Source: an uncultured Oscillospiraceae bacterium (GTDB taxonomy: Bacteria > Bacillota > Clostridia > Oscillospirales > Oscillospiraceae). Taken from it: 57,645 nucleotides of DNA. The position numbers were made by a program, and so were the translations under genes. The notes beneath the pieces are model-generated. The model saw nothing but the letters and a program-made list of their open reading frames with translations. It ran no database searches and was not told where the DNA came from. The first letter of the stretch is position 1. Each line of letters begins with the position of its first letter. This document shows positions 3,958-50,816 of this stretch, piece after piece. The stretch is from positions 1 through 57,645 of the forward strand of contig CALWVV010000015.1 of the NCBI GenBank assembly GCA_944385035.1, in the 5' to 3' direction.

Positions 3958-4090
3958 AGATGGGCCTGCAACTGCATGGGGCCCCCGCCCGAGCCCAGCG
4001 CAGCGGGTCGGGCGGGGAGAGGACGAGCAGCACAGTGAGCGAGCTTTGCCCGGCAGGGCGAAGCGAGGGATACGCGGCTTGCGAGGACGA
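3958..4090. mobile_element. 133-bp hairpin-rich insert between two copies of the smc 3' end
   Basis: Non-coding, very GC-rich DNA separating the two smc-end copies. It contains a strong hairpin at 3983-4017: CCCCGCCCGA pairs with TCGGGCGGGG, and three more G-C pairs extend the stem inward past a bulged G. It shares AGCGCAGCG (3997-4005) and GCAGGGCGAA (4053-4062) with the insert at 50677-50816, in the same order. No open frame or transposase is present, so if it moves it must be driven in trans. Calling it a mobile element is inference from the duplicated flanks and the second instance. Confidence 0.5.
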
Positions 4091-4161
4091 AGGAGCAGGG
4101 CGTAAGCCGAATGCTGACTATTAACCTGAACGATGTGGAAAAAGAACTGAATATTCGGTAA
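4091..4161 (+). repeat. Direct repeat, copy 2: untranslated duplicate of the smc 3' end
   Basis: 71 bp matching 3887-3957 with four substitutions: one synonymous (Ile), one Lys to Asn, one synonymous (Arg) and TAG to TAA. It has no start of its own. It directly abuts the Shine-Dalgarno site of the next gene, so this copy probably occupies the original position of the smc end. Confidence 0.93.
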
Positions 4162-4183
4162 TGTGCTCCAAGGAGGAAGGATA

Positions 4184-4486
4184 TTGAACGAATCAGAACA
4201 AAAGAAGCAGGGCTGGCTGCCCATTGTGGGCCTCATCGCCCTGATCATCGTGCTGTTTGTAGGCATTAAACTGGTGTTTGCCGCACTGGGTGCGGCCATC
4301 CCGCAAGAGCCTGCCGGCCACGGGGAACCTGCAGGTCCCGGAGGCCCCGGCCTGACGGAGCAGGTGGAAAAGTCGGGGCCCGCGCAGAATACTCCGGCCT
4401 TCTGTCCCTTCTGCGGGGAGGAATTGAACGATTCCTTCCAGTGGGGGCAGTACTGCCCCTATTGTGGGGAGAAAGTGGAACAATAA
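4184..4486 (+). CDS. Small membrane protein with C-terminal zinc ribbon
   Basis: 100 aa. TTG at 4184 is chosen because AGGAGG lies 7 nt upstream; an upstream GTG at 4163 has no ribosome site. Residues about 11-35 form one hydrophobic membrane helix, followed by a Pro/Gly-rich linker and a C-terminal pair of knuckles, CPFCGEEL and CPYCGEKV. The four cysteines (Cx2C, 17 residues, Cx2C) fit a structural zinc-ribbon. Function is unknown. It lies between smc and ftsY, ending 15 bp before ftsY, and is probably cotranscribed with them. Confidence 0.8.
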   Translation: MNESEQKKQGWLPIVGLIALIIVLFVGIKLVFAALGAAIPQEPAGHGEPAGPGGPGLTEQVEKSGPAQNTPAFCPFCGEELNDSFQWGQYCPYCGEKVEQ

Positions 4487-4501
4487 GGAGAGAAACAACC
4501 T

Positions 4502-5371
4502 ATGGGCTTTTTTGATAAACTGAAAAAGATCAACATCTTTGCCAGCTTCGGCTCCGAGCTCAACGACGATTTCTATGATGAGCTGGAGGAGTCTCTGATT
4601 CTGGCGGATACAGGTATGGATGTGACCCTGGAGCTGGTGGAAGAGCTGAAAAGCCGGGTGCGCCAGCGGGGCATTAAAACCCTGGAGGAGGCCCGAAGCT
4701 GCATGGTGGAGGTCATTGCCGATGCCCTCAGCGCGGGAGAGACCGCTCTCAATTTGTCCACCCGTCCCTCCGTGGTGCTGTTTATCGGGGTGAATGGAGT
4801 GGGGAAAACCACCACCATCGGCAAGATCGGCCGCCAGCTGAAGAGAGAGCGGAAGAAGGTCCTCTTCTGTGCCGCCGATACCTTCCGGGCCGCTGCCGCC
4901 GAGCAGCTGACCATCTGGGCCGACCGGGCCGGGGTGGACATCATCAAGCAGCACGAGGGGGCCGACCCCGCCGCCGTAGTTTTTGACGCCATGAGCGCCG
5001 CCAAAGCCAGGGGCACCGATGTGGTGCTGGTGGATACTGCCGGGCGGCTGCACAATAAGCAGAATTTGATGAACGAGCTCAACAAGATCTCCCGAGTCAT
5101 CGACCGGGAGCTGCCCGGCAGTGCACGGGAGACCCTGCTGGTGCTGGATGCCACCACCGGACAAAATGGCCTCATCCAGGCTAAACAGTTTAAGGAGGCC
5201 GCCGGAATTACCGGTATTGTCCTCACCAAGCTGGACGGGACCGCCAAGGGCGGCATCGCCATTGCCATCGCCAAGGAGTTGGGTGTGCCGGTGAAGTTTG
5301 CCGGCGTGGGCGAGGGCGTGGATGATCTTAAACCCTTTGATGCCGCAGAATTTGCCCAGGCACTTATATAA
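4502..5371 (+). CDS. ftsY: Signal recognition particle receptor FtsY
   Basis: GTPase that docks SRP-ribosome complexes to the Sec translocon at the membrane. 289 aa: a helical N domain (about 1-80), then the G domain with P-loop GVNGVGKT at 96-103, DTAGR near 178 and TKLD near 242. The acidic A domain of the proteobacterial protein is absent, as is normal in Firmicutes. AAGGAG precedes the ATG. It follows the zinc-ribbon gene and is itself followed, 15 bp on, by a small membrane-protein gene. Confidence 0.97.
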   Translation: MGFFDKLKKINIFASFGSELNDDFYDELEESLILADTGMDVTLELVEELKSRVRQRGIKTLEEARSCMVEVIADALSAGETALNLSTRPSVVLFIGVNGVGKTTTIGKIGRQLKRERKKVLFCAADTFRAAAAEQLTIWADRAGVDIIKQHEGADPAAVVFDAMSAAKARGTDVVLVDTAGRLHNKQNLMNELNKISRVIDRELPGSARETLLVLDATTGQNGLIQAKQFKEAAGITGIVLTKLDGTAKGGIAIAIAKELGVPVKFAGVGEGVDDLKPFDAAEFAQALI

Positions 5372-5386
5372 TTGAGGTGGGAGCCC

Positions 5387-5596
5387 GTGGAATACTGGAG
5401 CTGGCGGCTGCTTGCAATCCTTCTGGCCCTTCAAATTGTGCGCTGGATTCGCCGGGACGGTGTGAGAAATGTTCTGCGCTCTATGCGCCTGTGGGGTGAG
5501 GGTGTAAGTGTTGAACAGCGCCGGGAGAATTTAGCTGGACTTGGAATTTTACTGGTTCTTCTGCTTTTGGGCGTGCTGTTTGGACTGGCCGATTGA
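5387..5596 (+). CDS. Small two-helix membrane protein, unknown function
   Basis: 69 aa beginning VEYWSWR. GTG at 5387 is preferred because GAGGTGG (5374-5380) lies 6 nt upstream; the in-frame TTG at 5372 would sit inside that site. Two hydrophobic segments (about residues 6-20 and 48-67) flank a basic middle rich in Arg. No family is recognised. It follows ftsY closely and is probably the last gene of the smc-ftsY unit. Confidence 0.65.
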   Translation: MEYWSWRLLAILLALQIVRWIRRDGVRNVLRSMRLWGEGVSVEQRRENLAGLGILLVLLLLGVLFGLAD

Positions 5597-5668
5597 AAAG
5601 CCGACACAAGAACGGGAAAAATTCCCCCGTTTATTTACATTCTATCTATACCTTCCTGGGTCGAATTA

Positions 5669-5677
5669 TGATACAAT
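5669..5677 (+). promoter_or_regulatory. Extended -10 promoter before rph
   Basis: TGATACAAT at 5669-5677 is an extended -10 with no good -35 at the right distance. It starts 39 bp upstream of the rph ATG and would drive the rph-rdgB-yhbY-nadD group. The same nine bases occur before the FAD dehydrogenase gene at 49041. Confidence 0.55.
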
Positions 5678-5707
5678 ATGGGAAAAATTGCGGAGAGGAA
5701 GTCTTTT

Positions 5708-6424
5708 ATGTCCAGAATTGATGGCCGGGCAGCCAATGAGCTGCGTCCGGTGGAGATCATTCCCAATATCAACAAGTTTGCTGAGGGCTCCTGCCTCATT
5801 CGCTGCGGCAACACCCATGTGCTGTGTACCGCCAGCGTGGAGGATAAGCCCCCCCGCCACGTCCCCGAAGGGGAGGGCTGGGTGACCGCTGAGTATTCCA
5901 TGCTCCCCCGAGCTAACCGGGAGCGGTCCCGCCGGGACATCTCCAAGCTGAAGCTCAACGGACGCAGCGCCGAGATCCAGCGCCTCATCGGCCGGGCCCT
6001 TCGCTCTGTGGTGGATCGGAAGAAGCTGGGCCCCTGGAACATTACCATCGACTGCGATGTGCTCCAGGGAGATGGAGGCACCCGTACCGCCTCCATTACC
6101 GGCGGCTTTGTGGCCATGATGCTGGCGTTCCAAAACATGATGGAGAAGGGCCAGCTCTCTGAGTACCCGGTCAGCGGCTATGTGGCCGCGGTGTCTGCAG
6201 GCATTGTGGACGACGTGCCCCTGCTGGACCTGTGCTATGAGGAAGACTCCGCCGCCATGGTGGACCTCAACTGTGTCATGGACGACCAGGGCCGTCTCAT
6301 CGAGATCCAGGGCACCGGCGAGGAGCGCCCCTTCACCCTGGAGGAGCAGCAGAAGCTGGTGGAGCTGTGCCGCGAGGGCATTTCCAAGCTCCAGGCCATC
6401 CAGAAGGAAATTCTGGGCGCATAA
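5708..6424 (+). CDS. rph: Ribonuclease PH
   Basis: Phosphorolytic 3'-5' exoribonuclease that trims the 3' ends of tRNA precursors. 238 aa, normal length. The start at 5708 gives MSRIDGRAANELRPVEI, aligning with the family N-terminus, and is preceded by GAGAGG. Residues 62-100 carry the Arg-rich ring interface (RERSRRDISK) and residues 115-132 the phosphate-binding GDGGTRTASITG. rdgB starts 17 bp downstream, a common rph-rdgB pair in Firmicutes. Confidence 0.96.
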   Translation: MSRIDGRAANELRPVEIIPNINKFAEGSCLIRCGNTHVLCTASVEDKPPRHVPEGEGWVTAEYSMLPRANRERSRRDISKLKLNGRSAEIQRLIGRALRSVVDRKKLGPWNITIDCDVLQGDGGTRTASITGGFVAMMLAFQNMMEKGQLSEYPVSGYVAAVSAGIVDDVPLLDLCYEEDSAAMVDLNCVMDDQGRLIEIQGTGEERPFTLEEQQKLVELCREGISKLQAIQKEILGA

Positions 6425-6441
6425 GAGTAGGAGGGGAGCAC

Positions 6442-7035
6442 ATGAAACTGGTGCTGGCCAGCAAAAATAAAAAGAAGCTGGTGGAGATGAACGACATTCT
6501 CTCCCATTTGGGCATTGAAGTCTGCTCTGAGGCAGAGGCTGGTGTGGATGTGGAGGTGGAAGAGACCGGGACCACCTTTGAGGAAAACTCTCTGCTGAAG
6601 GCCAAAGCCGTGATGGAGGCCAGCGGACTGCCCGCCATTGCCGATGATTCGGGTCTATGTGTGGATGCGTTGGGGGGCGCCCCCGGCGTTTACTCCGCCC
6701 GGTACGGCGGGGAAGGTCTGGACGACGTACAGCGCTACCAGCTCCTGCTGGAGAATATGAAGGGCCAAATGCCGAGAACGGCCCGCTTTGTTTCGGTCAT
6801 TACCTGCTGCTTCCCCAATGGAGATGTGCTCTCTGCACGGGGGGAGTGCGAGGGGACCGTCGCCTTTGCCCCTATGGGGGAGGGCGGCTTTGGGTATGAC
6901 CCCATATTCTTCGTGCCCGGCTTAAAAAAGACCTTTTCTCAGCTGACTGCGGAAGAAAAGAACGCCATCTCCCACCGGGGAAAGGCACTGGAGGCCTTTC
7001 AGGTCAAGCTGAAGGAGTATTTGAACAAGAATTAG
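6442..7035 (+). CDS. rdgB: dITP/XTP pyrophosphatase (RdgB/HAM1 family)
   Basis: House-cleaning enzyme that hydrolyses dITP, ITP and XTP to monophosphates so that deaminated purines are not built into DNA or RNA. 197 aa. Visible family motifs: N-terminal SKNKKK at 7-12, ADDSGL at 67-72 with the metal-binding Asp, GGFGYDPIF near 147-155 and HRGKAL near 182. AGGAGGGGAG stands before the ATG. It lies between rph and yhbY on the same strand. Confidence 0.96.
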   Translation: MKLVLASKNKKKLVEMNDILSHLGIEVCSEAEAGVDVEVEETGTTFEENSLLKAKAVMEASGLPAIADDSGLCVDALGGAPGVYSARYGGEGLDDVQRYQLLLENMKGQMPRTARFVSVITCCFPNGDVLSARGECEGTVAFAPMGEGGFGYDPIFFVPGLKKTFSQLTAEEKNAISHRGKALEAFQVKLKEYLNKN

Positions 7036-7060
7036 AAATTGGAATTAGGAGTACGAAATT

Positions 7061-7384
7061 ATGTCAGAACTGACAAGCAGGCAGCGCGCTCAGCTGCGGA
7101 GCCTGGCCAACAGCATTGATACGATTTTAATCGTAGGAAAAGATGGCATCGGAGACAATCTGGTCAAACAGGCCAACGACGCTCTGGAGGCGCGGGAGCT
7201 CATCAAGGGGAAGGTTTTGGAGAATTCTCTGCTCTCCCCCCGAGAGGCGGCCGAGCAGTTGGCCCCTCTCACCCGCAGCGAGGTGGTGCAGGTGATCGGA
7301 ACAAAATTTGTCCTGTACCGTCAAAGCCATAACAAGGACAAAAAAGACAAAATTGTACTGGTAAGCGACAAGAAAAGCAGGTAA
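7061..7384 (+). CDS. yhbY: YhbY-type RNA-binding protein (CRM domain)
   Basis: 107 aa, essentially one CRM domain (residues 1-95), the fold of the YhbY/YqeI family that associates with pre-50S ribosomal subunits. It has the family start LTSRQRAQLRSLAN, the VGKDGI loop, and the closing VIGTKFVLYRQ strand; the tail is lysine-rich. The next gene is nadD-yqeK, matching the Bacillus yqeI-yqeJ-yqeK order. Confidence 0.92.
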   Translation: MSELTSRQRAQLRSLANSIDTILIVGKDGIGDNLVKQANDALEARELIKGKVLENSLLSPREAAEQLAPLTRSEVVQVIGTKFVLYRQSHNKDKKDKIVLVSDKKSR

Positions 7385-7430
7385 TCCGGGCAGTTGGCCC
7401 TTAAGATTATGTGATAAAGGTGGTACCGGT

Positions 7431-8639
7431 ATGAAAATCGGCGTCTACGGCGGAACCTTTAACCCTCCCCATCTGGGGCATCTGGCAGCGGCACGGGCAG
7501 CGATTGAGGCCTTGGAGCTGGATAAATTGCTGCTGATTCCCGCGGCTGTCCCACCCCACAAGGACCTGCCCCAGGAGACGCCCATCCTGGAGCACCGGCT
7601 GGCTATGGTGGAGAAGATGGCGGATGCCCTCCGCCTTCCTCAGGTGGTGGAGGTGTCCCGGTTGGAAGTGGAGCGGTGCGGCAAGAGCTATACCTCCGAC
7701 ACACTGGAGGCGCTCCATCAGCAATATCCCGATGCCCAGCTGTGGCTGCTTATGGGAACGGATATGTTTCTGACGCTCCACCAGTGGCACGACCCAGGAG
7801 AGATTTTGAAACTGGCCGGAATCTGTGCCTTTGGCCGGAAGGAACAGGACGGAGAGGAAATCTTTGCCCCCCAGCGGGCCTTTTTGGAAAAACAGTATGG
7901 GGCAAAGGTGGTTACCATGACCTTGCCGGACCTGGTGGAAATCTCGTCTACTCAGCTGCGGGAGCGGTTGGCCAGAGGAGAGGGCGGGGAATATCTCCAT
8001 CCCTCGGTATACGGTTACATTCTGATGAATGGGCTCTATGGCACCCATGCCGACCTAAAACATTTGGAGGTTCCGGAACTGCGGGCCTGCTCCTATTCCA
8101 TGGTAAAGGAGAAGCGGGTCAAACATATCCGAGGCACCGAGGAGGAGGCCGTCCGCCTGGCAAAACGCTGGGGGGCCGATGAAACGATGGCCCGCCGGGC
8201 GGGGATCCTCCATGACTGCACCAAGTATTTGGAACTGGACGAACAGCTTGCTCTGTGCCGGCGATATGGGGTAGAGCTGGATGAGCTGGAGCAGCGGGCA
8301 GTGAAGCTGCTCCACTCCAAAACCGGGGCCTGTATCGCCCGTGCGGTATTTGGAGAGCCGGACGAGGTTTTTTGGGCTATTTTCTGGCATACTACAGCCA
8401 AAGCAGATATGACCACGCTGGAAAAGATTTTATATGTGGCCGATTACATGGAACCAAACCGGGACTTTGACGGAGTGGAGCGGCTGCGGGAGCTGGCTTA
8501 CCGGGATTTGGATCAGGCACTCCTTCTGGGCATCGAAACCACCATTCAAGAGATGAGGGACCGGAAACTCCCCGTACACAAAAATACCATCCAGGCGCAG
8601 ACCTGGCTGAGAGAACACGGTGTAACAATAGAGGACTGA
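7431..8639 (+). CDS. nadD: Fused NadD nicotinate-nucleotide adenylyltransferase and YqeK HD hydrolase
   Basis: 402 aa with two enzymes in one chain. Residues 1-205 are NadD, which makes deamido-NAD from nicotinate mononucleotide and ATP: GGTFNPPHLGH (8-18) and ISSTQLRERL near 167. Residues about 215-402 are YqeK, an HD-domain Ap4A hydrolase family: an early His in KHIRG, the HD pair in GILHDCTKYL near 257, FWHTTAK near 320 and the Asp of KILYVADYME near 335. In Bacillus these are adjacent separate genes (yqeJ, yqeK); here no stop or start separates them. The Shine-Dalgarno site AAAGGTGG precedes ATG 7431. The LCP gene follows after 6 bp. Confidence 0.94.
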   Translation: MKIGVYGGTFNPPHLGHLAAARAAIEALELDKLLLIPAAVPPHKDLPQETPILEHRLAMVEKMADALRLPQVVEVSRLEVERCGKSYTSDTLEALHQQYPDAQLWLLMGTDMFLTLHQWHDPGEILKLAGICAFGRKEQDGEEIFAPQRAFLEKQYGAKVVTMTLPDLVEISSTQLRERLARGEGGEYLHPSVYGYILMNGLYGTHADLKHLEVPELRACSYSMVKEKRVKHIRGTEEEAVRLAKRWGADETMARRAGILHDCTKYLELDEQLALCRRYGVELDELEQRAVKLLHSKTGACIARAVFGEPDEVFWAIFWHTTAKADMTTLEKILYVADYMEPNRDFDGVERLRELAYRDLDQALLLGIETTIQEMRDRKLPVHKNTIQAQTWLREHGVTIED

Positions 8640-8645
8640 AACAAG

Positions 8646-10295
8646 ATGACAGAAAAAAATATGCATGGAAAGCGTGAGGCCTCGGTGCGCCGGACCTCTC
8701 TGGGCAGCTACTGGCGCCAGCATAAGGCCTGGGTAGCGGGGCTGACCAGGGGACAAAAGATTAAATACCGCCTGTTTCAGGTATTGGTGGTACTGGCTGT
8801 TTTGGTGATCGCCGTCTTCCTGGCGGTTCGCGCCTGGGTCAGGCTGCCTGAGGTGCCCAATCTGCCCACGGGGGAGACCGGCTCTCAAACCGGAGAGGAA
8901 CTGGGATATGACGGAGCGGAGCTGCCCAATGTGGCCAAGAGCGGACGAAAGGATGGGTACTACACCTTCCTGGTGGCCGGACAGGATGTGATCAGCGGGT
9001 CTACCGATACCATGATCCTTGTGAGCTATGACACCAAAAACAAGGAGATCCACGCCATCAGTCTGCTGCGTGACACGATGATCAACACCAGTGCAAGCAG
9101 CAAGCGCCTGAACTCGGTCTACACCCGAAACCGGGGGGACAAGAGCCTGCCGGAGGAACAGCGGGTAGAGAACGGCATGACTGCCTTGAAGAAAGAGGTC
9201 AGCAAGCTTACCGGCATCTACCCGGATTTCTATGTGATGGTCCAGTGGGAGGCCGTGGGCCAACTGGTAGACGCCATCGGCGGGGTCTATTTTGAGGTCC
9301 CCTTTGATATGGACTATGACGATCCCGCCCAGAATCTGCACATTCACCAGAAGGCGGGATACCGGCTGCTGGACGGAGAGGACGCCATGGAGGTGGTCCG
9401 CTTCCGCAAAAATAACGACTTCTCCATTTCTCTGGGCGACAGCGGCCGAACAGAAATTCAGCGGGATTTCCTGGTAGCAGTGCTGGAAGAGTGTCTCCAG
9501 CCCGATGTGCTGTTGAAATTGCCTACCTTAGCCAACATTTTCCTGGAGAATGTGGATACGGATCTGAGCGTGGGCAATATCCTGGCTTTTGCCGAGCTGG
9601 CCGTTGGAATGGACCCGGAGAATGATGTGACCATTGTATCCATGCCCTGGACGGGGGTTTGGTATAACGGCGCATCCATGGTCGTTCCGATTGAGGACGA
9701 ACTGCTGACGATCCTCAACGACGGGATAAATCCTTATTTGGATGATATCCAAGCCAGTGACCTGCAGCTGATGTACAAAAAGAGCGACGGAAGCTTCGGC
9801 GTGACCAATGGCACCCTGGCCGATCCCAGCATGGGCCGGGCCCAGGTGTCTGTAAAGCCTCAGCCTGAGGTGCCCGAGGAGCCTATTGAGCCGGAGAATC
9901 CCGACCAGTCCGGTACCTCCAGCAGCGGAACGTCCACAGAGGATCCTGTTATTTCCGGAGACCCGTCAACGCCTGACGGAAGCGGCTCGGGGACGAGCAG
10001 CGGTGAAACAGGAAGCGGAGACGGAAACACAGGCGGAACTACTGGTGGGAACACAGGCGGAAATACGGGCGGAAATACGGATGGGAACACAGGTGGAAAC
10101 GAGCCTTCCGGCGGCGAAACGGGCGGAGGAGAAAGCGGCCCGGTGGATCCTGTCGTCCCCGGCGAACCGGTGGTTCCTGGTGATGTGCCGGAAGGAAACG
10201 GCGGAGCAGCGTCCAGCTCATCCAATGCTTCCCAGGGCGGCAGCAATCCTCCCGCAGGAGGAGATACCAGCTTGAGCGAGGACAATGCCGCCTAG
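8646..10295 (+). CDS. LytR-CpsA-Psr (LCP) family protein with Gly/Asn/Thr-rich tail
   Basis: 549 aa. LCP enzymes transfer lipid-linked glycopolymers to peptidoglycan outside the membrane. Order: basic cytoplasmic head (1-39), one membrane anchor (about 40-64), LCP catalytic domain (about 100-330) with the early TDTMILVSYD and ISLLRDTMI strands and RKNNDFS bearing the conserved Arg, then a disordered tail from about 400 rich in Pro, Gly, Ser, Thr, Asn and Glu. The tail contains six 12-bp coding repeats (10023-10094). Genes of this family often sit next to yqeK and rsfS, as here. The long tail is probably a wall-spanning spacer (inference). Confidence 0.92.
   Translation: MTEKNMHGKREASVRRTSLGSYWRQHKAWVAGLTRGQKIKYRLFQVLVVLAVLVIAVFLAVRAWVRLPEVPNLPTGETGSQTGEELGYDGAELPNVAKSGRKDGYYTFLVAGQDVISGSTDTMILVSYDTKNKEIHAISLLRDTMINTSASSKRLNSVYTRNRGDKSLPEEQRVENGMTALKKEVSKLTGIYPDFYVMVQWEAVGQLVDAIGGVYFEVPFDMDYDDPAQNLHIHQKAGYRLLDGEDAMEVVRFRKNNDFSISLGDSGRTEIQRDFLVAVLEECLQPDVLLKLPTLANIFLENVDTDLSVGNILAFAELAVGMDPENDVTIVSMPWTGVWYNGASMVVPIEDELLTILNDGINPYLDDIQASDLQLMYKKSDGSFGVTNGTLADPSMGRAQVSVKPQPEVPEEPIEPENPDQSGTSSSGTSTEDPVISGDPSTPDGSGSGTSSGETGSGDGNTGGTTGGNTGGNTGGNTDGNTGGNEPSGGETGGGESGPVDPVVPGEPVVPGDVPEGNGGAASSSSNASQGGSNPPAGGDTSLSEDNAA
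10023..10094 (+). repeat. Six in-frame 12-bp repeats in the LCP gene
   Basis: Six tandem 12-bp units starting at 10023, each a GGN-AAY-ACN-GGN-like four-codon block that translates as variants of Gly-Asn-Thr-Gly. Units differ mainly at third positions, so length could vary by slippage without changing frame. Confidence 0.85.
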
Positions 10296-10394
10296 TTTTC
10301 CGAAGTTGCCAATCTTCCGGCCGGGGTAGTTCCCGGCTATGAATCCCCCAAATGGGGAGAACATTGTATCAGAGACGAGAAAGGAGCGGACCGG

Positions 10395-10748
10395 ATGAAT
10401 TCCTATGAACTGGCGGCCCTGCTGGCAAAAGCCCTGGACAGTAAGAAGGGGCAGGACATCAAGGTCTTAAAGACCGAAGAGTTGACCACCCTGGCAGACT
10501 ATTTCGTACTTTGCACCGCTACCTCCAACACCCAGGTGAAAGCGATGTCGGACGCCTGTGAGGAGGCAGCGGAGAAGCAGGGAGAGCATGCCCATCACAT
10601 TGAGGGGCACCGGGATGGCACCTGGCTGCTGATGGATTTTTCCAGCGTAGTGGTCCATGTGTTCACCGATGAGGCCAGAAAGTTCTATGACCTGGAGCGG
10701 CTGTGGAGTGACGCCCAGGAAATGGATATGGCAGAGATCCTGAACTAA
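10395..10748 (+). CDS. rsfS: Ribosome silencing factor RsfS
   Basis: 117 aa RsfS/YbeB/Iojap protein. It binds ribosomal protein L14 on the 50S subunit and blocks joining to 30S when translation should slow. Family features seen: KGQDIKVLK, DYFVLCTATSNTQVKAM, and HIEGHRDGTWLLMDFSSVVVHVF with the C-terminal FYDLERLW. GAAAGGAG precedes the ATG. It lies 99 bp after the LCP gene and ends in a strong terminator shared with the convergent lipid-kinase gene. Confidence 0.96.
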   Translation: MNSYELAALLAKALDSKKGQDIKVLKTEELTTLADYFVLCTATSNTQVKAMSDACEEAAEKQGEHAHHIEGHRDGTWLLMDFSSVVVHVFTDEARKFYDLERLWSDAQEMDMAEILN

Positions 10749-10750
10749 AG

Positions 10751-10784
10751 AAAAAACGCCCTGGCGTAAGCCAGGGCGTTTTTT
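10751..10784. terminator. Bidirectional terminator between rsfS and the lipid kinase gene
   Basis: ACGCCCTGGC (10756-10765), loop GTAA, GCCAGGGCGT (10770-10779), with an A-run on the left and a T-run on the right, so it can stop transcription from both convergent genes. Confidence 0.93.
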
Positions 10785-11679: not shown

Positions 11680-11749
11680 AGCGGGAATCCTCCGTGTTAT
11701 GCTCGCAGCGGACAGCGGGCAAATGCCCCCTTTACTTCGAGTAGAGAAT

Positions 11750-11777
11750 ATTATAGGTAGCTTTTCAAAAAAATCAA
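11750..11777 (-). promoter_or_regulatory. Promoter of the lipid kinase gene
   Basis: Minus strand: TTGATT (11777-11772), 16-bp spacer, TATAAT (11755-11750), about 70 bp upstream of the start codon. Confidence 0.7.
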
Positions 11778-29549: not shown

Positions 29550-29551
29550 GC

Positions 29552-42931: not shown

Positions 42932-43051
42932 AGATACCTCCTGTGGGCAATTTGCTGAAATTCAAAAGGAAGTATATCATATTTTTCCCGGAGGAGCAAC
43001 CGAAAGCCCGAGAAACCTGCAGCAGGCCGGGGAAAAAACGGGAAAAACATC

Positions 43052-43067
43052 ACACTATATATTTTGT
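43052..43067 (+). promoter_or_regulatory. NrdR box 1
   Basis: ACACTATATATTTTGT fits the 16-bp NrdR box (ACAC-W-ATATAT-W-GTGT form) with mismatches in the right half. It is the first of a pair upstream of nrdD, 45 bp (start to start) from box 2. Confidence 0.72.
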
Positions 43068-43096
43068 ATTTCAGACGAAAAGTGATTATGTTAAGC

Positions 43097-43112
43097 ACAA
43101 GATATAGTATGT
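43097..43112 (+). promoter_or_regulatory. NrdR box 2
   Basis: ACAAGATATAGTATGT, second NrdR-like 16-mer, ending 8 bp upstream of the -35. Paired boxes before ribonucleotide reductase genes are the NrdR repression pattern; the spacing here is longer than the usual three helical turns. Confidence 0.7.
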
Positions 43113-43119
43113 ATGGCGG

Positions 43120-43148
43120 TAGACAAAGGAAGGGGGGTGTGCTATAAT
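43120..43148 (+). promoter_or_regulatory. nrdDG promoter
   Basis: TAGACA (43120-43125), 17-bp spacer, TATAAT (43143-43148) preceded by TGC. A leader of about 70 nt follows before the nrdD start, with a small GGGGCA/TGCCCC hairpin. Confidence 0.75.
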
Positions 43149-43221
43149 GCCACCTGGACTTGTCCGCCGGGGCACCTGCCCCAGCGAAGAATACCCCTGT
43201 GAACCGGGAGAGGAGAACGAC

Positions 43222-45348
<2,127 letters not shown>

Positions 45349-45366
45349 AACATCAGGAGTAAGATC

Positions 45367-45885
45367 ATGAACTACGCCGACATCAAAAAAGTGGATGTGG
45401 CCAACGGACCCGGTGTGCGGGTGAGCCTGTTTGTCTCCGGCTGTACCCATCACTGCAAGGAGTGCTTCAACCCCGAGACCTGGGATTTCTCCTTTGGCTC
45501 CCCCTTTGGTCAGAAGCAGATTGAGGAGATTCTGAAGCTTTTGGACCGCAGCTATATCCGGGGCCTGTCCCTGCTGGGGGGCGAGCCCTTTGAGCCGGAG
45601 AATCAGGCCGCGGTGCTGGAATTGGTGCGCCAGGTGCGGGCACAGCTGCCCCAGAAGGATATCTGGTGTTATTCCGGCTACCTCTTTGAGGTGCTGGCCG
45701 CCGGGAAGGTGGGGGAGCACAGCCGGGAGCTGCTGGAACAGTTGGACATCTTGGTGGACGGGCCCTTTGTGCTGGAGCAGAAGGACTTGGGCCTTCGGTT
45801 CCGGGGTTCCGCCAACCAGCGTATCATCGATGTACCCGCTTCCTTAAAGGCGGGGAATGTGCAGCTGTGGCAGGAAATTCAATAA
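45367..45885 (+). CDS. nrdG: Anaerobic RNR activating protein (radical SAM)
   Basis: 172 aa. Uses S-adenosylmethionine and a 4Fe-4S cluster to install the glycyl radical on NrdD. CTHHCKEC at 26-33 is the Cx3Cx2C cluster motif; LLGGEPFEPEN near 72 matches the GGE motif; DGPFVLEQKD near 133 is typical of NrdG. AGGAG precedes the ATG. Cotranscribed with nrdD. Confidence 0.96.
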   Translation: MNYADIKKVDVANGPGVRVSLFVSGCTHHCKECFNPETWDFSFGSPFGQKQIEEILKLLDRSYIRGLSLLGGEPFEPENQAAVLELVRQVRAQLPQKDIWCYSGYLFEVLAAGKVGEHSRELLEQLDILVDGPFVLEQKDLGLRFRGSANQRIIDVPASLKAGNVQLWQEIQ

Positions 45886-45890
45886 GGAAC

Positions 45891-45928
45891 AAAGGCGGGG
45901 CGGCCCAGTTGGGCCGCCCCGTCTTTCC
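45891..45928. terminator. Terminator between nrdG and the azoreductase gene
   Basis: GGGGCGGCCC (45897-45906), loop AGTT, GGGCCGCCCC (45911-45920), followed by GTCTTT; on the minus strand GCCTTTG follows. Convergent genes, so both may use it. Confidence 0.85.
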
Positions 45929-45945
45929 TTGTGTGATCTTGCGGA

Positions 45946-46539
45946 TTATCCTACGAACTCCTTCGCAAACTGGTCGATCTGCTGCCGGGCCTGGGTAAGG
46001 ATGCCCTCCACATCTGCTCCGCGGATATCCAGATTTTCCGCCGTCAGGCAGTGGGTATTTGAAATTCCCACCATATTGGCCCAGGCCTTTAAGTAGTCAT
46101 AGCCGAGATTTAAATTGCCGATGGGGCCGCCGGCGGTGGTGATGAATACCAGGTGACGGGCCTTGCACAGCCCTACCTGCTGCCCCTCCTTCGTGTAGCC
46201 GAAGGTGACTCCGATGGCGCTTGCCCACTCCAGATATACTTTCAAAGCGGCGGGGAATGTCAGGTCCCAGTAAGGAGCACCCACCAGGATCAAGTCCGCC
46301 TGTGCGGCTTCCAAGGCGGGCTGCAGCATGGGGTGATCCTTCTCATGGGAGGTGAGTGCGTCACGCTCCTGTGCCATGGGGCCGGTCAGGACCGGGAGAG
46401 AGGCGGTGGTGAGGTCCCGGTGCAGAACCTGGCACTGAGGATTCAGGGCAGTATACTGATCTAAAAATTCCCGGCAGAGCATTTTGGTGCGGGAGAGTTC
46501 ACCCCGCATGCAGGCATCGACAAATAAAATCTGTTCCAT
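45946..46539 (-). CDS. NADH-azoreductase / flavodoxin-fold NAD(P)H oxidoreductase
   Basis: 197 aa FMN-dependent reductase of the AzoR / NQO family. VDACMRGELSRTK at 7-19 is the phosphate-binding turn (family has SPR..S), GAPYWDLTFPAALKVYLEW (about 94-112) is the diagnostic FMN stretch, and FITTAGGPIG near 137 follows. Start 46539 has GAGG-AG upstream. It ends head to tail after the barrel-only pyruvate kinase, with a 5-bp gap. Confidence 0.88.
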   Translation of the reverse strand: MEQILFVDACMRGELSRTKMLCREFLDQYTALNPQCQVLHRDLTTASLPVLTGPMAQERDALTSHEKDHPMLQPALEAAQADLILVGAPYWDLTFPAALKVYLEWASAIGVTFGYTKEGQQVGLCKARHLVFITTAGGPIGNLNLGYDYLKAWANMVGISNTHCLTAENLDIRGADVEGILTQARQQIDQFAKEFVG

Positions 46540-46543
46540 ACGA

Positions 46544-47539
46544 TCACTCCTCATCTTTCATGGCCTCCTGGGCCTCACGGGCGGTTTTGACCAGATATTC
46601 CATGGCCTGGCCGGGCCAGCGGCCCACGGCAGTCTCGCCGGTGAGCATCAGGGAGGCGGCTCCGTCCAAAACGCCGTTATAAATGTCACATACTTCCGCA
46701 CGGGTTGGGACAGGCCGCTGCTCCATGGACCAGAGCAGCTGGGTCACCAGACAGAAGGGCCGCCCCTGCTCCCGGCAGCGGCGGGCAATGTCCTTTTGTA
46801 CCCTGGGCAGTTTCCACAGGGGCATGGAGTTGCCCAAATCACCACGGGCAATACAGATTTCGTCCGCCATGGCGATGATGCTGTCCAAATGCTCCACGCC
46901 CTGCTGGCTTTCGATTTTAGCCATGATTTTCAAATGCTCCAATCCCATGTCTTTGAGTGTCTGGCGTAATACTTCCAGGTCATGGCGGCCACGGACAAAG
47001 GGCTGGAGGATATGGGTGACGCCAAATTCTCTGGCCAGGGCCAAATTGTCCAGATCGGCCTGAGTGAGGGTGGGGGCATCCATCTGGGCCCCCGGCAGGG
47101 ACATGCTCTTTCGGCTGCGCAGAGCTCCTCCCCGGAGCACCTTGCACAGCAGGTTGCTGGAGCTGGCCTTGCGCACTTGGAGCAGAAGAGCGCTGTCGTC
47201 GATGGAGATTTCCTGTCCGGGCTTTGCGTGTTCCAGTACCGCCTTTGGAACGGGGATGCCGCCGTCGCCCATCAGAATGATGTCGCCGGGCTTGAGGGGA
47301 ATGGGGTTTGTAAGCTCACCGATGCGCAGCTCCGGGCCCTGCATGTCCAAAATCAGGTGGGCCTTTGGAAGGCCCGCGCGCTTTGCGGCGGGCCAAAAGC
47401 CGTCTTTCAGCAGCGAGGTACACCGGGAGAGTGTAGTGTGGGACAAGTTCAACCGGGCGCCGGTCATGCCCGCCCGAAACATGTGATCCAGGACAGCGGG
47501 TTTGGTGCATGCGCTGCCCAGCGTGGCATAAAATTCCAT
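46544..47539 (-). CDS. Pyruvate kinase-like protein lacking the C-terminal domain
   Basis: 331 aa, about 150 shorter than the true pyk. Catalytic features remain: ARLNLSHT near 28, LDMQGPELR near 64 (usual DTKGPEIR), a short B domain, IMAKIESQQG near 203, IARGDLGNS near 228, LVTQLLWSM near 259 and LTGETAVGRWP near 292. The chain stops after the barrel, so the allosteric C domain is missing. A normal pyk is present at 36914, so this is a specialised paralogue or a different kinase. It is upstream of the azoreductase gene in the same orientation. Confidence 0.85.
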   Translation of the reverse strand: MEFYATLGSACTKPAVLDHMFRAGMTGARLNLSHTTLSRCTSLLKDGFWPAAKRAGLPKAHLILDMQGPELRIGELTNPIPLKPGDIILMGDGGIPVPKAVLEHAKPGQEISIDDSALLLQVRKASSSNLLCKVLRGGALRSRKSMSLPGAQMDAPTLTQADLDNLALAREFGVTHILQPFVRGRHDLEVLRQTLKDMGLEHLKIMAKIESQQGVEHLDSIIAMADEICIARGDLGNSMPLWKLPRVQKDIARRCREQGRPFCLVTQLLWSMEQRPVPTRAEVCDIYNGVLDGAASLMLTGETAVGRWPGQAMEYLVKTAREAQEAMKDEE

Positions 47540-47618
47540 TTCCTACCGCTCCTTGTTTTGAATTACCGTCTACATTATTATGCAGGGTAATTTATCGGAA
47601 GTCAATGAGGGAAGGGGA

Positions 47619-47647
47619 TTGTCTTTTTTCAAGATTTCTTGTATAGT
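47619..47647 (+). promoter_or_regulatory. ruvX promoter
   Basis: TTGTCT (47619-47624), 17-bp spacer, TATAGT (47642-47647), 25 bp before the ATG. Confidence 0.65.
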
Positions 47648-47671
47648 AGGGGCAAGAACAGGAGGGATGTC

Positions 47672-48106
47672 ATGCGCGTCATGGCTGTTGACTATGGAGA
47701 TGCCCATACTGGGGTGGCCCTGTCCGACCCAACCGGGCTGTTGGCGGGTACGGTCACTACCATTCACAGCCGAAAGGCTGAGGTGGTGCTGGAGGAGCTG
47801 TCCAAGCTGGTGAAGGAGTACCAGGTGGAGGAGCTGGTCATGGGCTTTCCCCGGAATATGGATGGCACCGAGGGCCCCCGTGCCCAGCTTTACCGGGAGT
47901 TTGCCGGGCAGCTGGAGGCGTGCACGGGGATGGCGGTGGTGCTGTGGGATGAGCGGCGCACCACCGTAGATGCCCACCGAATTCTCTTTGAGTCGGGGAA
48001 AAACGCCAAAAAACGAAAGAAAACTGTGGACGCGGTGGCGGCCAGCCTGATTTTAGAGGGGTACTTAAACGCGAAACGCCTGCGGGGCGAGAAAAGGGAA
48101 GGTTAA
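47672..48106 (+). CDS. ruvX: YqgF/RuvX family nuclease
   Basis: 144 aa RNase H-fold protein, proposed Holliday junction resolvase and involved in 16S rRNA 5' end maturation. Asp7 in MAVDYGDAHTGVA, Glu54 in VEELVMGFPRNMDG, DERRTTVDA at 93-101 and the C-terminal KKTVDAVAASLIL are the family signatures. AGGAGGG precedes the ATG. The next gene starts 12 bp downstream. Confidence 0.93.
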   Translation: MRVMAVDYGDAHTGVALSDPTGLLAGTVTTIHSRKAEVVLEELSKLVKEYQVEELVMGFPRNMDGTEGPRAQLYREFAGQLEACTGMAVVLWDERRTTVDAHRILFESGKNAKKRKKTVDAVAASLILEGYLNAKRLRGEKREG

Positions 48107-48118
48107 GGAGGAATCCAT

Positions 48119-48952
48119 ATGGAGATCAAAACTGTCTGGGCCGTCTATTTCAGCGGCACCGGAACGACGGAAAAGGTGGCCATCCATTTGGCAAAAGCCA
48201 TTGCCCAGGGCTTGGGTGCGGAGTATCAAGCGCACAACTATACCCAGCCGGCCGGCCGGGCCAACGAGCTGAATTTCGGTCCGGAGGACCTGGTGGTGCT
48301 GGGTACCCCGGTGTACGCCGGACGGGTGCCCAACCTGCTGCTGCCCTTTGTTCAGAACAGCATCCACGGCCAGGGGACCCTGGCGGTTCCCGTGGTGCTC
48401 TATGGCAACCGGAATTTTGACGACGGTCTTATGGAGCTGCGCAATGTGATGGCGGGCAATGGCTTCTGCCCTGTTTCCGCCGCCGCCATTGTAGGTGAGC
48501 ATTCCTTCTCCAAGATCCTGGGCGCCGGCCGCCCGGATGAGGCGGATATGGCTTTGGTGGATGAGCTGGCCCAAAAGACCGTTCAGAAGGTGAAGGAGCT
48601 CTCTCAGCTGCCTGAGGTCCCCGTTTCAGTGGAGGGCTGCGATCCCATCCGTCCCTACTACACCCCCAGGGACCGCCATGGCGAGCCCATTAAGGATTTT
48701 CTAAAGGCAAAGCCCGTCACCGACCCGGACAAGTGCGTCAAGTGCGGCCTGTGTGCCCGCCTGTGCCCCATGGGTTCCATTGATCCCAATGACGTGTCCA
48801 ATGTGGTAGGCAAGTGCATCAAGTGCTGTGCCTGTGTGAAAAAGTGCCCCATGGGCGCCAAGTATTTCGACCACGAGGGCTATCTGTACCACCAGCATGA
48901 GCTGGAGGACCAGTATGCCGCCCGCCGGGCCGAGAGCAAGGTTTTCCTATAA
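48119..48952 (+). CDS. Flavodoxin-ferredoxin fusion (EFR1 type)
   Basis: 277 aa. N-terminal flavodoxin domain (1-165; YFSGTGTTEKVA at 10-21 binds FMN phosphate) and C-terminal bacterial ferredoxin domain with two 4Fe-4S motifs, CVKCGLCARLCP near 204 and CIKCCACVKKCP near 231. It probably shuttles electrons between low-potential partners in anaerobic metabolism; the partner is unknown. AAGGAGG precedes the ATG. Confidence 0.92.
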   Translation: MEIKTVWAVYFSGTGTTEKVAIHLAKAIAQGLGAEYQAHNYTQPAGRANELNFGPEDLVVLGTPVYAGRVPNLLLPFVQNSIHGQGTLAVPVVLYGNRNFDDGLMELRNVMAGNGFCPVSAAAIVGEHSFSKILGAGRPDEADMALVDELAQKTVQKVKELSQLPEVPVSVEGCDPIRPYYTPRDRHGEPIKDFLKAKPVTDPDKCVKCGLCARLCPMGSIDPNDVSNVVGKCIKCCACVKKCPMGAKYFDHEGYLYHQHELEDQYAARRAESKVFL

Positions 48953-48967
48953 ACTCCCAAACATTCG

Positions 48968-49001
48968 TGCCCGCCGACCGTTTGGCCGGCGGGCATTTTT
49001 T
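48968..49001 (+). terminator. Terminator after the flavodoxin-ferredoxin gene
   Basis: TGCCCGCCG (48968-48976) / CGGCGGGCA (48987-48995), T6. Confidence 0.92.
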
Positions 49002-49040
49002 GCTGCCTGGGAAAAACGCGTTTTCTTTCCGGGGCAACTA

Positions 49041-49049
49041 TGATACAAT
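49041..49049 (+). promoter_or_regulatory. Extended -10 promoter of the FAD dehydrogenase gene
   Basis: TGATACAAT at 49041-49049, 46 bp before the ATG, identical to the rph site; no good -35. Confidence 0.6.
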
Positions 49050-49095
49050 AAGAAAAAATGGGGGACAAGATCCCAAAGAAAAGTATGGTGATTGC

Positions 49096-50676
49096 ATGAT
49101 CCGCATTGGAAACCTGCCCCTGCCTCCCGGAGGAGATCTGGAGCAGCTTCGTAAGCGGGCGGCCCGAGCCCTTGGGGTGCGCCCTGGGGAACTTGGGGAG
49201 CTGGAGATCGTCCGGCAGTCCATTGACGCCCGGAATAAAAACGAGACGCATTACGTCTATACGGTGGAGCTGTCCATGGCCCAGGAGGAGCGGCTGGTTC
49301 GGAACGCGCCGGGGAAGAATATTACCCTGGTGGAGCGGCGGACCTATGCGTTCCCCGGTGTGGGAAGAACCTCCCCGATGCCTCCCGTGGTGGTGGGTAT
49401 GGGACCGGCGGGGCTGTTTGCCGCCCTGTTTCTGGCCCGCAATGGGATCCCGTCCATCGTGTTGGAGCGGGGGAAGGATGTGGACGCCCGGACGGCGGAT
49501 GTGGAGAAATTCTGGGCCGGGGGCGAGCTGGATGAGAGCTCCAATGTCCAGTTTGGAGAGGGCGGTGCCGGTACTTTCTCCGACGGAAAGCTGACCACCG
49601 GTACCCATGACCCCCGGATCGGGGCGGTGTTGGATACCCTGGTGGAGGCGGGAGCCCCCAGGGATGTGAAGTACTCCCACAAGCCCCACGTGGGCACGGA
49701 TGTGCTGCGCCGGGTGGTAAAGACCATGCGGGAAGAACTTGTCTCCCTGGGGTGTGATGTCCGTTTTGGGCACAGGCTGGAGGGCTTGGTGCTGGAGGGG
49801 GACCAGGTGAAGGAAATTCACGTTATGGGGCCGGCGGGGGAATACCGGCTGGCCTGTGATGCCCTGGTTCTGGCCCCCGGCCATTCTGCACGGGATACCT
49901 TCCGCATGCTCCGGGATGCAGGAGTGCCCATGGAGAAGAAAAATTTTGCCATCGGGGTGCGTATTGAGCATGACCAGACGGCCATCAGCCGTCAGCAGTA
50001 TGGCCAAGCTTTTGAATTGCTGCCTCCCTCGGACTATAAACTGGCCTGCCATCTGCCGGGAGGGCGCTCTGCCTTCACCTTCTGCGTCTGCCCCGGCGGT
50101 CAAGTGGTGGCCGCCGCCTCAGAGCAGGGCGGTGTGGTCACCAATGGCATGAGTTTGCGGGCACGGGACGGAAAGAATATCAACGGCGGATTATTGGTGG
50201 GCGTGAGCCCTGAGGATTTCCCTGGGGAGGATGTGCTGGCCGGTGTGAGCTTCCAGGAACAGTGGGAGCGCTCAGCGTTTCGCCTGGGCGGGGAAGATTA
50301 CCGGGCCCCGGCCCAGCGGGTGGAGGACTTTCTTGCCCGGCGGCCCTCTGAGGGACCGGGAACCATTCTGCCCACCTACCGGCCGGGTGTGCGCTGGACG
50401 CAGATGGACGATTGCCTGCCTCAGGCAGTGAGTGATACCCTGCGCCAGGCCTTACCCATGATGGACCGTAAGCTTCACGGGTTTGCCGCCTGCGACGGCG
50501 TGCTGACCGGGGTGGAGACCCGTTCTTCCTCTCCGGTGCGGATTTTGCGGGGGGAGGATTTTCAGTCCGCTGTCCGGGGCCTCTATCCCTGCGGCGAGGG
50601 CGCGGGGTATGCCGGTGGTATCGTCAGCGCGGCAGTGGATGGAATCCGGGTGGCGGAAGCGGTGGCAAAAGGCTAA
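49096..50676 (+). CDS. FAD-dependent dehydrogenase (COG2509-like)
   Basis: 526 aa. N-terminal basic domain (1-95; RIGNLPLP ... RAARALGV), then the FAD Rossmann loop VVGMGPAGLFAALFLARNG at about 97-115, a long substrate domain and the C-terminal FAD motif LYPCGEGAGYAGGIVSAAVDG near 497-517 (shown here as family pattern). Members are uncharacterised oxidoreductases. ATG 49096 is preferred over upstream in-frame starts that lie in the promoter, though the Shine-Dalgarno is weak. The last 80 bp, from inside the GEGAG codons to the stop, are repeated at 50817-50896 after a 140-bp insert. Confidence 0.9.
   Translation: MIRIGNLPLPPGGDLEQLRKRAARALGVRPGELGELEIVRQSIDARNKNETHYVYTVELSMAQEERLVRNAPGKNITLVERRTYAFPGVGRTSPMPPVVVGMGPAGLFAALFLARNGIPSIVLERGKDVDARTADVEKFWAGGELDESSNVQFGEGGAGTFSDGKLTTGTHDPRIGAVLDTLVEAGAPRDVKYSHKPHVGTDVLRRVVKTMREELVSLGCDVRFGHRLEGLVLEGDQVKEIHVMGPAGEYRLACDALVLAPGHSARDTFRMLRDAGVPMEKKNFAIGVRIEHDQTAISRQQYGQAFELLPPSDYKLACHLPGGRSAFTFCVCPGGQVVAAASEQGGVVTNGMSLRARDGKNINGGLLVGVSPEDFPGEDVLAGVSFQEQWERSAFRLGGEDYRAPAQRVEDFLARRPSEGPGTILPTYRPGVRWTQMDDCLPQAVSDTLRQALPMMDRKLHGFAACDGVLTGVETRSSSPVRILRGEDFQSAVRGLYPCGEGAGYAGGIVSAAVDGIRVAEAVAKG
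50597..50676 (+). repeat. Direct repeat, copy 1: coding 3' end of the FAD dehydrogenase gene
   Basis: 80 bp ending exactly with the TAA stop. It matches 50817-50896 at 79 of 80 positions, the only change being the third base of the last Gly codon. This copy is translated. Confidence 0.97.
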
Positions 50677-50816
50677 GCCCTCGCCGGGGCCCCATCCTGG
50701 ATGGGGCGGCCGCTAGGCCGTAAATTCAAGCGCAGCGAAGAATTTCCGCAGGGCGAATTTAGTTCGCCCGAGGATTTCAATTCCAATGGGTTCCCACAGG
50801 GCCTTACCCTGTGGGA
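50677..50816. mobile_element. 140-bp hairpin-rich insert between two copies of the FAD gene 3' end
   Basis: Non-coding DNA with at least four hairpins: GCCCCATCC/GGATGGGGC (50689-50707), AAATTC/GAATTT (50722-50745), GGGCGAA/TTCGCCC (50751-50769) and a perfect 10-bp stem TCCCACAGGG/CCCTGTGGGA (50792-50816) whose edge touches the second repeat. It shares AGCGCAGCG (50729-50737) and GCAGGGCGAA (50748-50757) with the smc insert. Mobile nature is inferred, not shown. Confidence 0.55.

Follow-up and report, generated by a model that had tools for sequence, protein, structure and literature searches.

The window analysed here, a single stretch of 57,645 nt, carries two inserts with a common anatomy: a gene x is closed by a copy of its own end with a stop codon (D1), which is followed by a guide antisense to the x|D junction, a hairpin element with a right end, and then the original gene end (D2). 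Comparison of sequences across related loci shows that the typical unit consists of a gene-end copy with its stop, a guide of about 11–15 nt, hairpins and a defined right end, and that it sits at x|D2 in a conserved gene. With D1 in front of a unit at this place, the gene therefore reads x-D1-stop and stays whole. We somewhat favour the view that these are guide-directed, gene-end-restoring, non-autonomous insertion elements, which are like IS200/IS605 or REP in their working. The original prediction had proposed that the inserts represent a candidate new family, small, hairpin-rich and non-coding, whose members lie at gene ends and are apparently non-autonomous, and that their mode of insertion restores the gene end. 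Both proposals are supported by the results below.

The two inserts of the window

The first host gene is smc, for the chromosome segregation protein SMC (376..3957, + strand; an ORF matching NCBIfam TIGR02168 above the cut-off). Its ORF closes with D1 of insert 1 (3887..3957, +), the gene-end copy in use, which codes for ...KELKIR and has TAG as its last codon. The guide (3965..3979, +) is antisense to the junction 3886/3887 with two mismatches in the core; the smc-site guides of two other genomes, G026 (locus L189) and G027 (L201), have zero mismatches across the junction. The family-1 hairpin element (3979..4090, +) adjoins D2 with its right end ...GCGAGGACGA. D2 (4091..4161, +) is the original gene end and codes for KELNIR, the ending found in 16 of the 20 relatives without a second copy at smc. 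Repeats of 70 nt with 96% identity (3887–3956 and 4091–4160) border the insert. When 30 smc loci were inspected, 8 were filled, 2 held remnants (judged by eye) and 20 were without a second copy.

The second host gene (48967..50676, +) is an ORF resembling FAD-binding oxidoreductases, with NCBIfam FAD-dependent oxidoreductase matches under the curated cut-off. It closes with D1 of insert 2 (50597..50676, +), again the copy in use, with TAA as its last codon. The guide (50677..50686, +), antisense to a junction at about 50596/50597, was assigned by direct reading and the family statistics. The left hairpin, GGGGCCCCATC..GATGGGGCGG, lies at 50686..50709 (+), and the family-2 core with the right terminal hairpin at 50722..50815 (+). 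The core scores 92.3 bits with covariance model R1, this copy being one of the 15 used to build the model. D2 (50817..50896, +), the original gene end, closes with a TAA stop and is almost identical to D1. The bordering repeats (50587–50676 and 50807–50896, 96% identity) comprise about 80 nt of gene end, and their initial ~10 nt overlap the terminal hairpin. With the flanks of this site joined, 558 columns were aligned to the nearest relative, giving 469 matches and 11 gap columns; in the nearest relative both window sites are empty.

The two inserts had been thought related on account of shared words. The words are present in the order described, and an ordered 9-mer plus 10-mer in common was obtained in 4 of 3000 shuffled pairs, a statistic picked after the words were seen. 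Plain local alignment of the two inserts was not significant (40 of 600 shuffles equal or better). The words were therefore rejected as proof of kinship. Since, in addition to the non-significant alignment, a covariance model made from insert-2 relatives does not match insert 1, the inserts belong to separate sequence families. They are linked by architecture and by common sites, the latter because both types occupy one array at a single gene end at L024, L049/L130 and L006.

Distribution of the family and its flanking repeats

The covariance model, its source being the insert-2 relatives, matched at least 36 of 61 genomes of the genus, the own genome included, and at least 51 of 200 genomes of the family, in 39 of 106 genera; 36/61 and 51/200 are lower bounds, as searches over more than 40 genomes filter more strictly. 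The loci fall into 44 target groups, 32 of which hold at least two loci. Conserved host genes include smc, infB, uvrB, tsaD and alaS; names beyond those supported by NCBIfam (miaB and others) are presumed from sequence. Some sites are empty or hold remnants, one and the same site can be occupied in several species, and arrays occur. From this comparison between species, made largely on draft genomes, we infer a turnover of the elements.

A set of 156 hits (164 rows less 8 repeated or weak rows), drawn from the best-scoring ones, was examined for flanking repeats. A repeat score of at least 30 was found for 140 of them, and one further pair, at L116, is long-range. In 400 pairings of control flanks from different loci the 95% point was 13.5 and the 99% point 58.5, the top control scores presumably being pairings of the same gene. 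Because the 156 hits are the best-scoring ones, the repeat rate is probably lower among weaker hits. Among the weaker hits of G027 and G070 a repeat was seen in 44 of 58 (31 of 38 and 13 of 20); 64 of 73 hits were analysed, 6 of these lying at contig edges. Thus the observation of inserts between direct repeats of the host gene end is confirmed, and the two in the window are cases of something much larger: the family is widespread, most examined matches have a flanking repeat, and the repeats are far above chance. A repeat length of 70–80 bp had been named earlier; the length varies over the much wider range of 33–143 nt (123 loci).

Besides L116, 14 hits fall short of a repeat score of 25. 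Six of them are of a tRNA-terminator type, L027 retains the guide with D2 absent, the repeats at L134 and L162 are short or weak, a hit at L117 has no visible repeat, and four more lie at contig or locus edges. At L116 (the ackA site) D1 and the guide are followed by ~1.35 kb and then by the core and D2. This stretch, in the single long unit seen, holds one gene each of the nitroreductase and HxlR families, which look like cargo inserted behind the guide and ahead of the core. Typical units repeat every 189–271 nt; this is too short for a Y1 transposase, and therefore none lies inside the typical unit, nor is a transposase present in the long L116 unit.

The right end and the position of the junction

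D2 starts 2–4 nt past the last position of the model in 98 of 141 repeat-bearing hits; in 14 it starts 0–1 or 5–6 nt past it and in 29 elsewhere, the last including arrays with copies paired out of register. An ORF of at least 100 codons on the strand of the element, stopping between the D1 start and the core, was present in 107 of 123 loci. An ORF stop also directly precedes each insert of the window, and the break had been placed at the stop codon. However, in the 107 loci the junction lies inside the gene, 32–132 nt (median 79) upstream of where the D1 stop codon ends. The break is placed there because the guides match the junction at this point and the right end marks the same point. The identity of the copies peaks at an ending on the stop (−2 to +3 nt) in 61 of 141 hits, which we read as the border of constrained and free sequence. 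The distance from stop to guide also varies widely (−56 to +50 nt), so that recognition of the stop as such is not required. A stop-codon-specific break was accordingly rejected.

This broad distance would also be expected by a rather improbable alternative, namely that the elements land anywhere with long target-site duplications, that the survivors are those whose duplication spans a stop, and that recombination between strains keeps both copies coding. The defined right end is left unexplained by such survivorship.

The guide is antisense to the junction

The antisense guide does not appear in the earlier description of the inserts. A guide score of at least 10 was obtained at the junction in 89 of 122 loci, as compared with 2/121, 3/121, 2/118, 4/116 and 3/116 at shifted windows 60–400 nt upstream, and 5/122 in the sense orientation. 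Of guides scoring at least 8, 97 of 105 span the junction. In a profile of 95 loci, selected for a spanning match, pairing is 82–98% at −4 to +6 and reaches the background level by about −7 and +13. Where D1 and D2 differ, the guides show no preference (12 versus 9, with 6 matching neither), a point against the favoured reading. We regard the pairing of guide and junction as a firm comparative regularity, which would call for an enzyme whatever the mechanism. Under survivorship the antisense stretch would be a by-product of template switching, a joint reading that we consider just as improbable, as it leaves unexplained why the stretch is centred on the junction and well kept.

Within the core (−4 to +6) there are 24 guide mismatches of the G.U type versus 9 of the A.C type, a pattern that RNA explains no less well than DNA. 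Together with the antisense orientation to the sense strand across the junction, it speaks for an RNA route: the unit would be co-transcribed with its host gene, and the resulting RNA would insert by reverse splicing and/or target-primed reverse transcription, finding its target in the manner of a group I internal guide or a group II exon-binding site. In a variant of this route, x and D2 might become linked at the RNA level, and the coding state of D2 would then have an explanation. On the whole evidence we hold the RNA route to be unlikely, for reasons given with the hairpins and the enzyme search.

Divergence of D1 and D2

The differences between D1 and D2 are mostly synonymous, with a dN/dS of 0.079 in 101 of 123 loci (16 were dropped for want of a clear ORF of 100 codons and 6 for gaps, four of the latter having a single-base gap, that is, a frameshift between the copies). 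The D2 stop is in its unchanged place in 84 of 107 loci. Both observations look as though D2 were still used, as the RNA route would have it. For a neutral D2, by reasoning rather than by simulation, a dN/dS of about 0.5 would be expected; survivorship would have to invoke very frequent recombination to reach the value found. D1–D2 differences amount to 2.5% at the junction and climb to 9.7% at 70–79 nt; beyond 80 nt they are 5.9%, 4.4%, 4.7% and 0%, in few positions (187, 90, 64 and 11). The low dN/dS and the rising differences would fit if functional gene ends were exchanged between lineages. Against the favoured reading stand the halt of the rise beyond 80 nt and, in insert 2 of the window, the near identity of D1 and D2.

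In 78 of 89 loci D1 is closest to the D2 of the same locus, in 9 to another D1, and in 2 to both equally. Import of D1 from another species is therefore not the rule. When 79 amino-acid differences were compared with orthologues, D2 deviated in 21 and D1 in 14, with 31 ties and 13 without an orthologue, and D2 may for this reason be slightly relaxed. One whiA site pair between two species showed concerted changes (4 of 8 same-site pairs were compared). The closeness of D1 to its own D2 and the concerted whiA changes are both in line with survivorship.

Folding of the hairpins and search for an enzyme

On homologues, 98.7% of the cells of the hairpin stems are paired, with 485 two-sided changes, and none of 500 shuffles was as high. 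Stem mismatches among 2,193 cells are 14 G.T versus 10 A.C and 18 others. One stem-base pair has 36 G.T of 101; elsewhere there is no clear wobble excess, which stands against the RNA route. This pairing pattern speaks more for single-stranded DNA that folds at a replication fork, in the manner of IS200/IS605 and REP elements, than for RNA. The window inserts gave no Rfam match at gathering score. In four loci searched at E≤1, a single weak match lay outside the insert and there was no intron match. Therefore, a known Rfam family was rejected, a result that also weakens the RNA route. Likewise, RVT_1 was not found in many element-rich genomes, among them G008, G010, G019, G061, G066, G078 and G081, of which G008, G010 and G061 are 88, 98 and 99% complete, and a reverse transcriptase partner was rejected.

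None of the reverse transcriptase or transposase families searched was found to track the elements, so that the proposed co-occurrence with such an enzyme was not borne out. RAYT (TnpA_REP) relatives are present in 33 of the 61 genus genomes, and the elements could be REP-like clients of these proteins, a reading that we judge very improbable. Of the 36 RAYT loci inspected, which stand for 35 distinct places, 9 have an element at most 0.7 kb upstream, at uvrB or smc, an adjacency for which common intergenic hot spots could account. RAYT is present in 22 of 36 element-bearing versus 11 of 25 element-free genomes, a weak difference, and none was found in the fairly complete element-bearing genomes G012, G029, G067, G069 and G079. 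The four RAYT loci that were read have their own GTAG-type hairpins, whereas the consensus of 13 aligned elements has no conserved GTAG. RAYT genes flanked by the same long repeats were also looked for and rejected, the best direct repeat scoring 16.5 (23 RAYT loci, one place twice).

Taken as guide-directed insertion elements, the units would act as follows. Base pairing of the guide with the sense strand, on both sides of the cut, would determine the site. The right hairpin end would then be attached, to the exact nucleotide, to the severed gene end at its 5′ terminus, whereas on the left homology within the gene end would bring about the resolution, by which a working end is brought in or kept. 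The enzyme would be supplied in trans.

Discussion

IS200/IS605 elements have a defined right end after the right hairpin and choose their sites by pairing. The elements described here similarly have a guide near the hairpin foot that is complementary to the putative cleavage site. In IS608 and ISDra2, according to PMC8266576, the guides are tetranucleotides 5′ of the left hairpin. In contrast, the present guide is longer than that of IS608 and spans the inferred junction, and the elements come with a copy of host-gene sequence, which IS200/IS605 are not known to carry. In REP, a short motif 5′ of the hairpin foot is thought to serve as guide (PMC8266576). Like REP and REPtrons, our elements are small, dispersed, non-coding hairpins with no gene of their own. 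Unlike them, they are without GTAG, have a locus-specific guide of 11–15 nt before the left hairpin, carry a gene-end copy of tens of nt, and are not clearly tied to the enzyme. The best reading is that they work like IS200/IS605 or REP without meeting the definitions of those families.

Group I and group II introns have a guide antisense across the joined exons, and their insertion is harmless to the gene. An antisense guide and an unharmed gene are found here as well; however, the unit is very short, no known ribozyme core was found in the window or in the four loci searched, and the gene is saved by a spare end. Some integrative elements carry a replacement gene end in attP. Insertion near the 3′ end of a gene, with the end restored by incoming DNA, is shared with these, but no integrase was seen, one element type has 44 target groups, and the guide matches the site. 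MITEs, RUP and BOX are short, non-autonomous, dispersed repeats, as are the present elements, whose duplications are, however, of tens of nt (33–143) rather than a few and are accompanied by a guide. No shared terminal inverted repeats were noticed; the ends of the element differ, the left one being the guide.

No earlier description of these elements was found in the open-licence literature, and these tiny elements are seemingly a widespread set undescribed so far. We see about even chances that they are homing elements of a new, guide-programmed class: a protein-less unit of ~200 bp with a long antisense guide and a replacement gene end, mobilised in trans and using conserved genes as safe harbours. 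If this is true, a guide and its target could be read off together from every unit, and nature would supply such pairs at dozens of sites. Should insertion indeed be directed by the guide, annotators would have a cause for many gene-end duplications and perhaps for assembly breaks, and purifying selection on spare gene ends could be studied in a natural setting. A common family of gut bacteria would then possess a system that inserts DNA under the direction of natural guides of 11–15 nt and spares the target gene, which would explain how the elements live inside conserved genes such as smc, infB, uvrB, tsaD and alaS.

Results

Anatomy of the unit and the point of insertion

The inserts at 3958-4090 and 50677-50816 of the window, which comes from a 53-contig draft of 2.5 Mb, proved to be non-coding and hairpin-rich as first described, and each is flanked by both copies of the end of the preceding gene, smc for insert 1 and a FAD-binding oxidoreductase-like gene for insert 2. 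We refer to the upstream gene body as x, to the gene-end copy whose stop codon is in use as D1, and to the second copy, beyond the element, as D2. The core is the part of the element covered by the covariance model R1, which was built from 15 copies. Sequence 5' of the core recurs 3' of it in 140 of 156 matches (score at least 30). The right end is well defined, since D2 starts 2-4 nt past the final position of the model in 98 of 141 matches (repeat score at least 25). Among the 123 loci with D2 near the model end (-4 to +8), an on-strand ORF of at least 100 codons stops between the D1 start and the core in 107; the remaining 16 are mostly cut by contig ends or, on inspection, in agreement, with about four apparently real exceptions (L050, L078, L091 and L123).

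An antisense stretch, the guide, lies past the D1 stop, often directly adjoining it, and its target spans the left border of D1. In insert 2 it is GCCCTCGCCG, immediately 3' of the stop. In insert 1 it is CCTGCAACTGCATGG, the core of which carries two mismatches to the target; the smc-site guides of two other loci (L189 and L201) match this target across the junction without mismatch. At the x|D junction the guide score reaches at least 10 in 89 of 122 loci, compared with only 2-4 of 116-121 loci in control windows 60-400 nt upstream and 5 of 122 in the sense orientation. Guide and target pair in 82-98% of cases from -4 to +6 relative to the junction, and pairing has dropped to background at about -7 and +13. 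In the target, G is favoured at -2 (70/95) and at -3 (54/95).

The original prediction had placed the break at stop codons. The identity of D1 and D2 does stop within -2 to +3 nt of the stop codon in 61 of 141 matches, a clear peak with a broad spread that takes in mis-assigned frames and arrays. However, since the antisense stretch spans the left border of D1 and the right end is well defined, the actual insertion point lies within the gene, at x|D2, at a distance of 32-132 nt (median 79; 107 loci) upstream of the end of the D1 stop. The left border of D1 thus marks the site at which D2 was separated from its gene. Just past D2 of insert 2, at 50905-50944, stands a perfect 18-bp inverted repeat, probably the original terminator of the gene.

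In 103 matches aligned by fitting to the model (101 distinct), 98.7% of stem cells pair and 485 two-sided changes were counted, a value reached in 0 of 500 shuffles. One base pair at the foot of the right hairpin is G.T in 36 of 101; the remaining stem mismatches, 14 G.T, 10 A.C and 18 of other types, compare with 2,151 Watson-Crick cells. Such little wobble points to DNA hairpins, though guide mismatches lean towards G.U types (24 versus 9 A.C).

Empty, filled and remnant sites

Of the 61 genus genomes, 56 contain the oxidoreductase gene. As judged by eye, G001, the nearest relative (90% identity over the query), has an intact gene end without an insert, G031 has a filled one, and G008 retains just the guide and the left hairpin. 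When the flanks of window site 2 were joined (560 bases), they aligned with G001 over 558 columns with 469 matches and 11 gap columns, whereas the filled site aligned over just 379 columns. Of 30 smc loci inspected, 8 are filled, counting that of the window's own genome; 2 were judged by eye to be remnants; and the other 20, that of G001 (99% identical over the query) among them, have no second copy. In 16 of these 20 the gene ends in KELNIR, as does D2 in the window, whose D1 ends in KELKIR; D2 is therefore most likely the original gene end.

Family size and targets

As a DNA query, insert 2 found matches in 20 of 60 genomes (own included), all of the same genus. The covariance scan that had been proposed as a check found R1 in 36 of 61 genus genomes, own included, with 11 matches in the window's own genome and up to 52 in the richest, G027; across the family it found 51 of 200 genomes and 39 of 106 genera (E≤1e-6). 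The supposed relatedness of the two inserts held in part. The sequence family of insert 1 is a second, separate one, with 26 distinct matches among the loci examined, 12 having a flanking repeat score of at least 25 and 7 of those 12 a guide across the junction; yet both kinds share arrays at a single gene end (L024, L049/L130 and L006). Two R1 matches in a row occur at 11 of 145 loci.

The targets form 44 groups, 32 of them with at least two loci. NCBIfam supports ackA, tsaD, whiA, infB, uvrB and formate-tetrahydrofolate ligase, and also alaS, a partial gene that scored under its cut-off. Six R1 matches (L018, L025, L062, L064, L065 and L066, around position 1500) are without a gene-end repeat. 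A terminator-type hairpin comes next in all six, with tRNA-like sequence beyond it on the opposite strand in several. These six are a second habitat of the family. At the ackA site of G078 (L116, 1-1700), D1 and guide are followed by about 1.35-1.4 kb and then by core and D2; the spacer holds a nitroreductase-family gene on the minus strand and, on the plus strand, a gene for an HxlR-family regulator. In this sole long unit seen, true cargo and a later insertion into an ordinary unit are equally likely.

Evolution of D1 and D2

Over 101 loci, D1 and D2 differ at 306 of 1,556 synonymous and 92 of 5,146 non-synonymous sites (dN/dS = 0.079), and the aligned portion of D2 contains no premature stop. 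By reasoning, a ratio of about 0.5 would be expected if one copy were dead and the other live. The observed ratio lies far below this, and D2 was therefore coding for the greater part of the divergence. Either two ends that were both in use are brought together by exchange with other lineages, or D2 is used even now. In 84 of 107 loci the stop of D2 has kept its position, and at four loci a single-base gap separates the two copies in alignment. The nearest sequence to D1 is the D2 of its own locus in 78 of 89 cases; either most donors are therefore closely related, or D1 and D2 convert each other.

Differences rise from 2.5% adjoining the junction to 9.7% at 70-79 nt, as would be expected from exact joining at the right end and resolution of the left side by homology; guide constraint accounts for just the first ten or so bases. 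Beyond 79 nt the differences are lower, on few positions. In four complete same-site comparisons between G027 and G070, there are 0-4 differences in D2 over 57-82 aligned bases, and the flank past D2 differs at 9-24% of aligned positions. At the formate-tetrahydrofolate ligase site (L286 of G027 versus L281 of G070), D2 is identical over 82 aligned bases with one end gap and D1 has 3 differences; here the end in use looks less conserved than the displaced one.

Discussion

The unit probably works as IS200/IS605 or REP elements do, as a hairpin element directed by a guide. However, the elements have neither the GTAG that defines REP nor the internal transposase of IS200/IS605, and the short duplications of MITEs are not seen. 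We know of no family with a long guide and a spare gene end.

As to candidate machinery, a reverse transcriptase domain (RVT_1) is present in 27 of 61 genomes and was not found in many element-rich ones among the 61; Y1_Tnp, the IS200-type transposase domain, is present in 30. RAYT (TnpA_REP) proteins occur in 33, namely in 22 of the 36 genomes with elements and in 11 of the 25 without, and one carries the NCBIfam name REP-associated tyrosine transposase, below the curated cut-off. An element lies within 0.7 kb upstream of RAYT at 9 of 36 loci, and long flanking repeats were absent around RAYT in all 23 loci tested. The association is a lead, not a link. An ORF ends 3-62 nt upstream of the RAYT gene at 22 of 36 loci (35 places; L175-L190, L198-L217), often uvrB or smc, as if RAYT genes too preferred gene ends. 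In each of the four RAYT loci read, GTAG-type REP hairpins of the gene's own were seen by eye inside its coding sequence (L186 4737-5220, L198 275-749, L199 1045-1390 and L200 2629-3214).

Many G027 elements lie about 300 nt or less from a contig end (C10, C15, C76, C86, C97, C102, C115, C119 and C127); arrays have probably broken the assembly there. In drafts such as G027, gene ends may be wrong.
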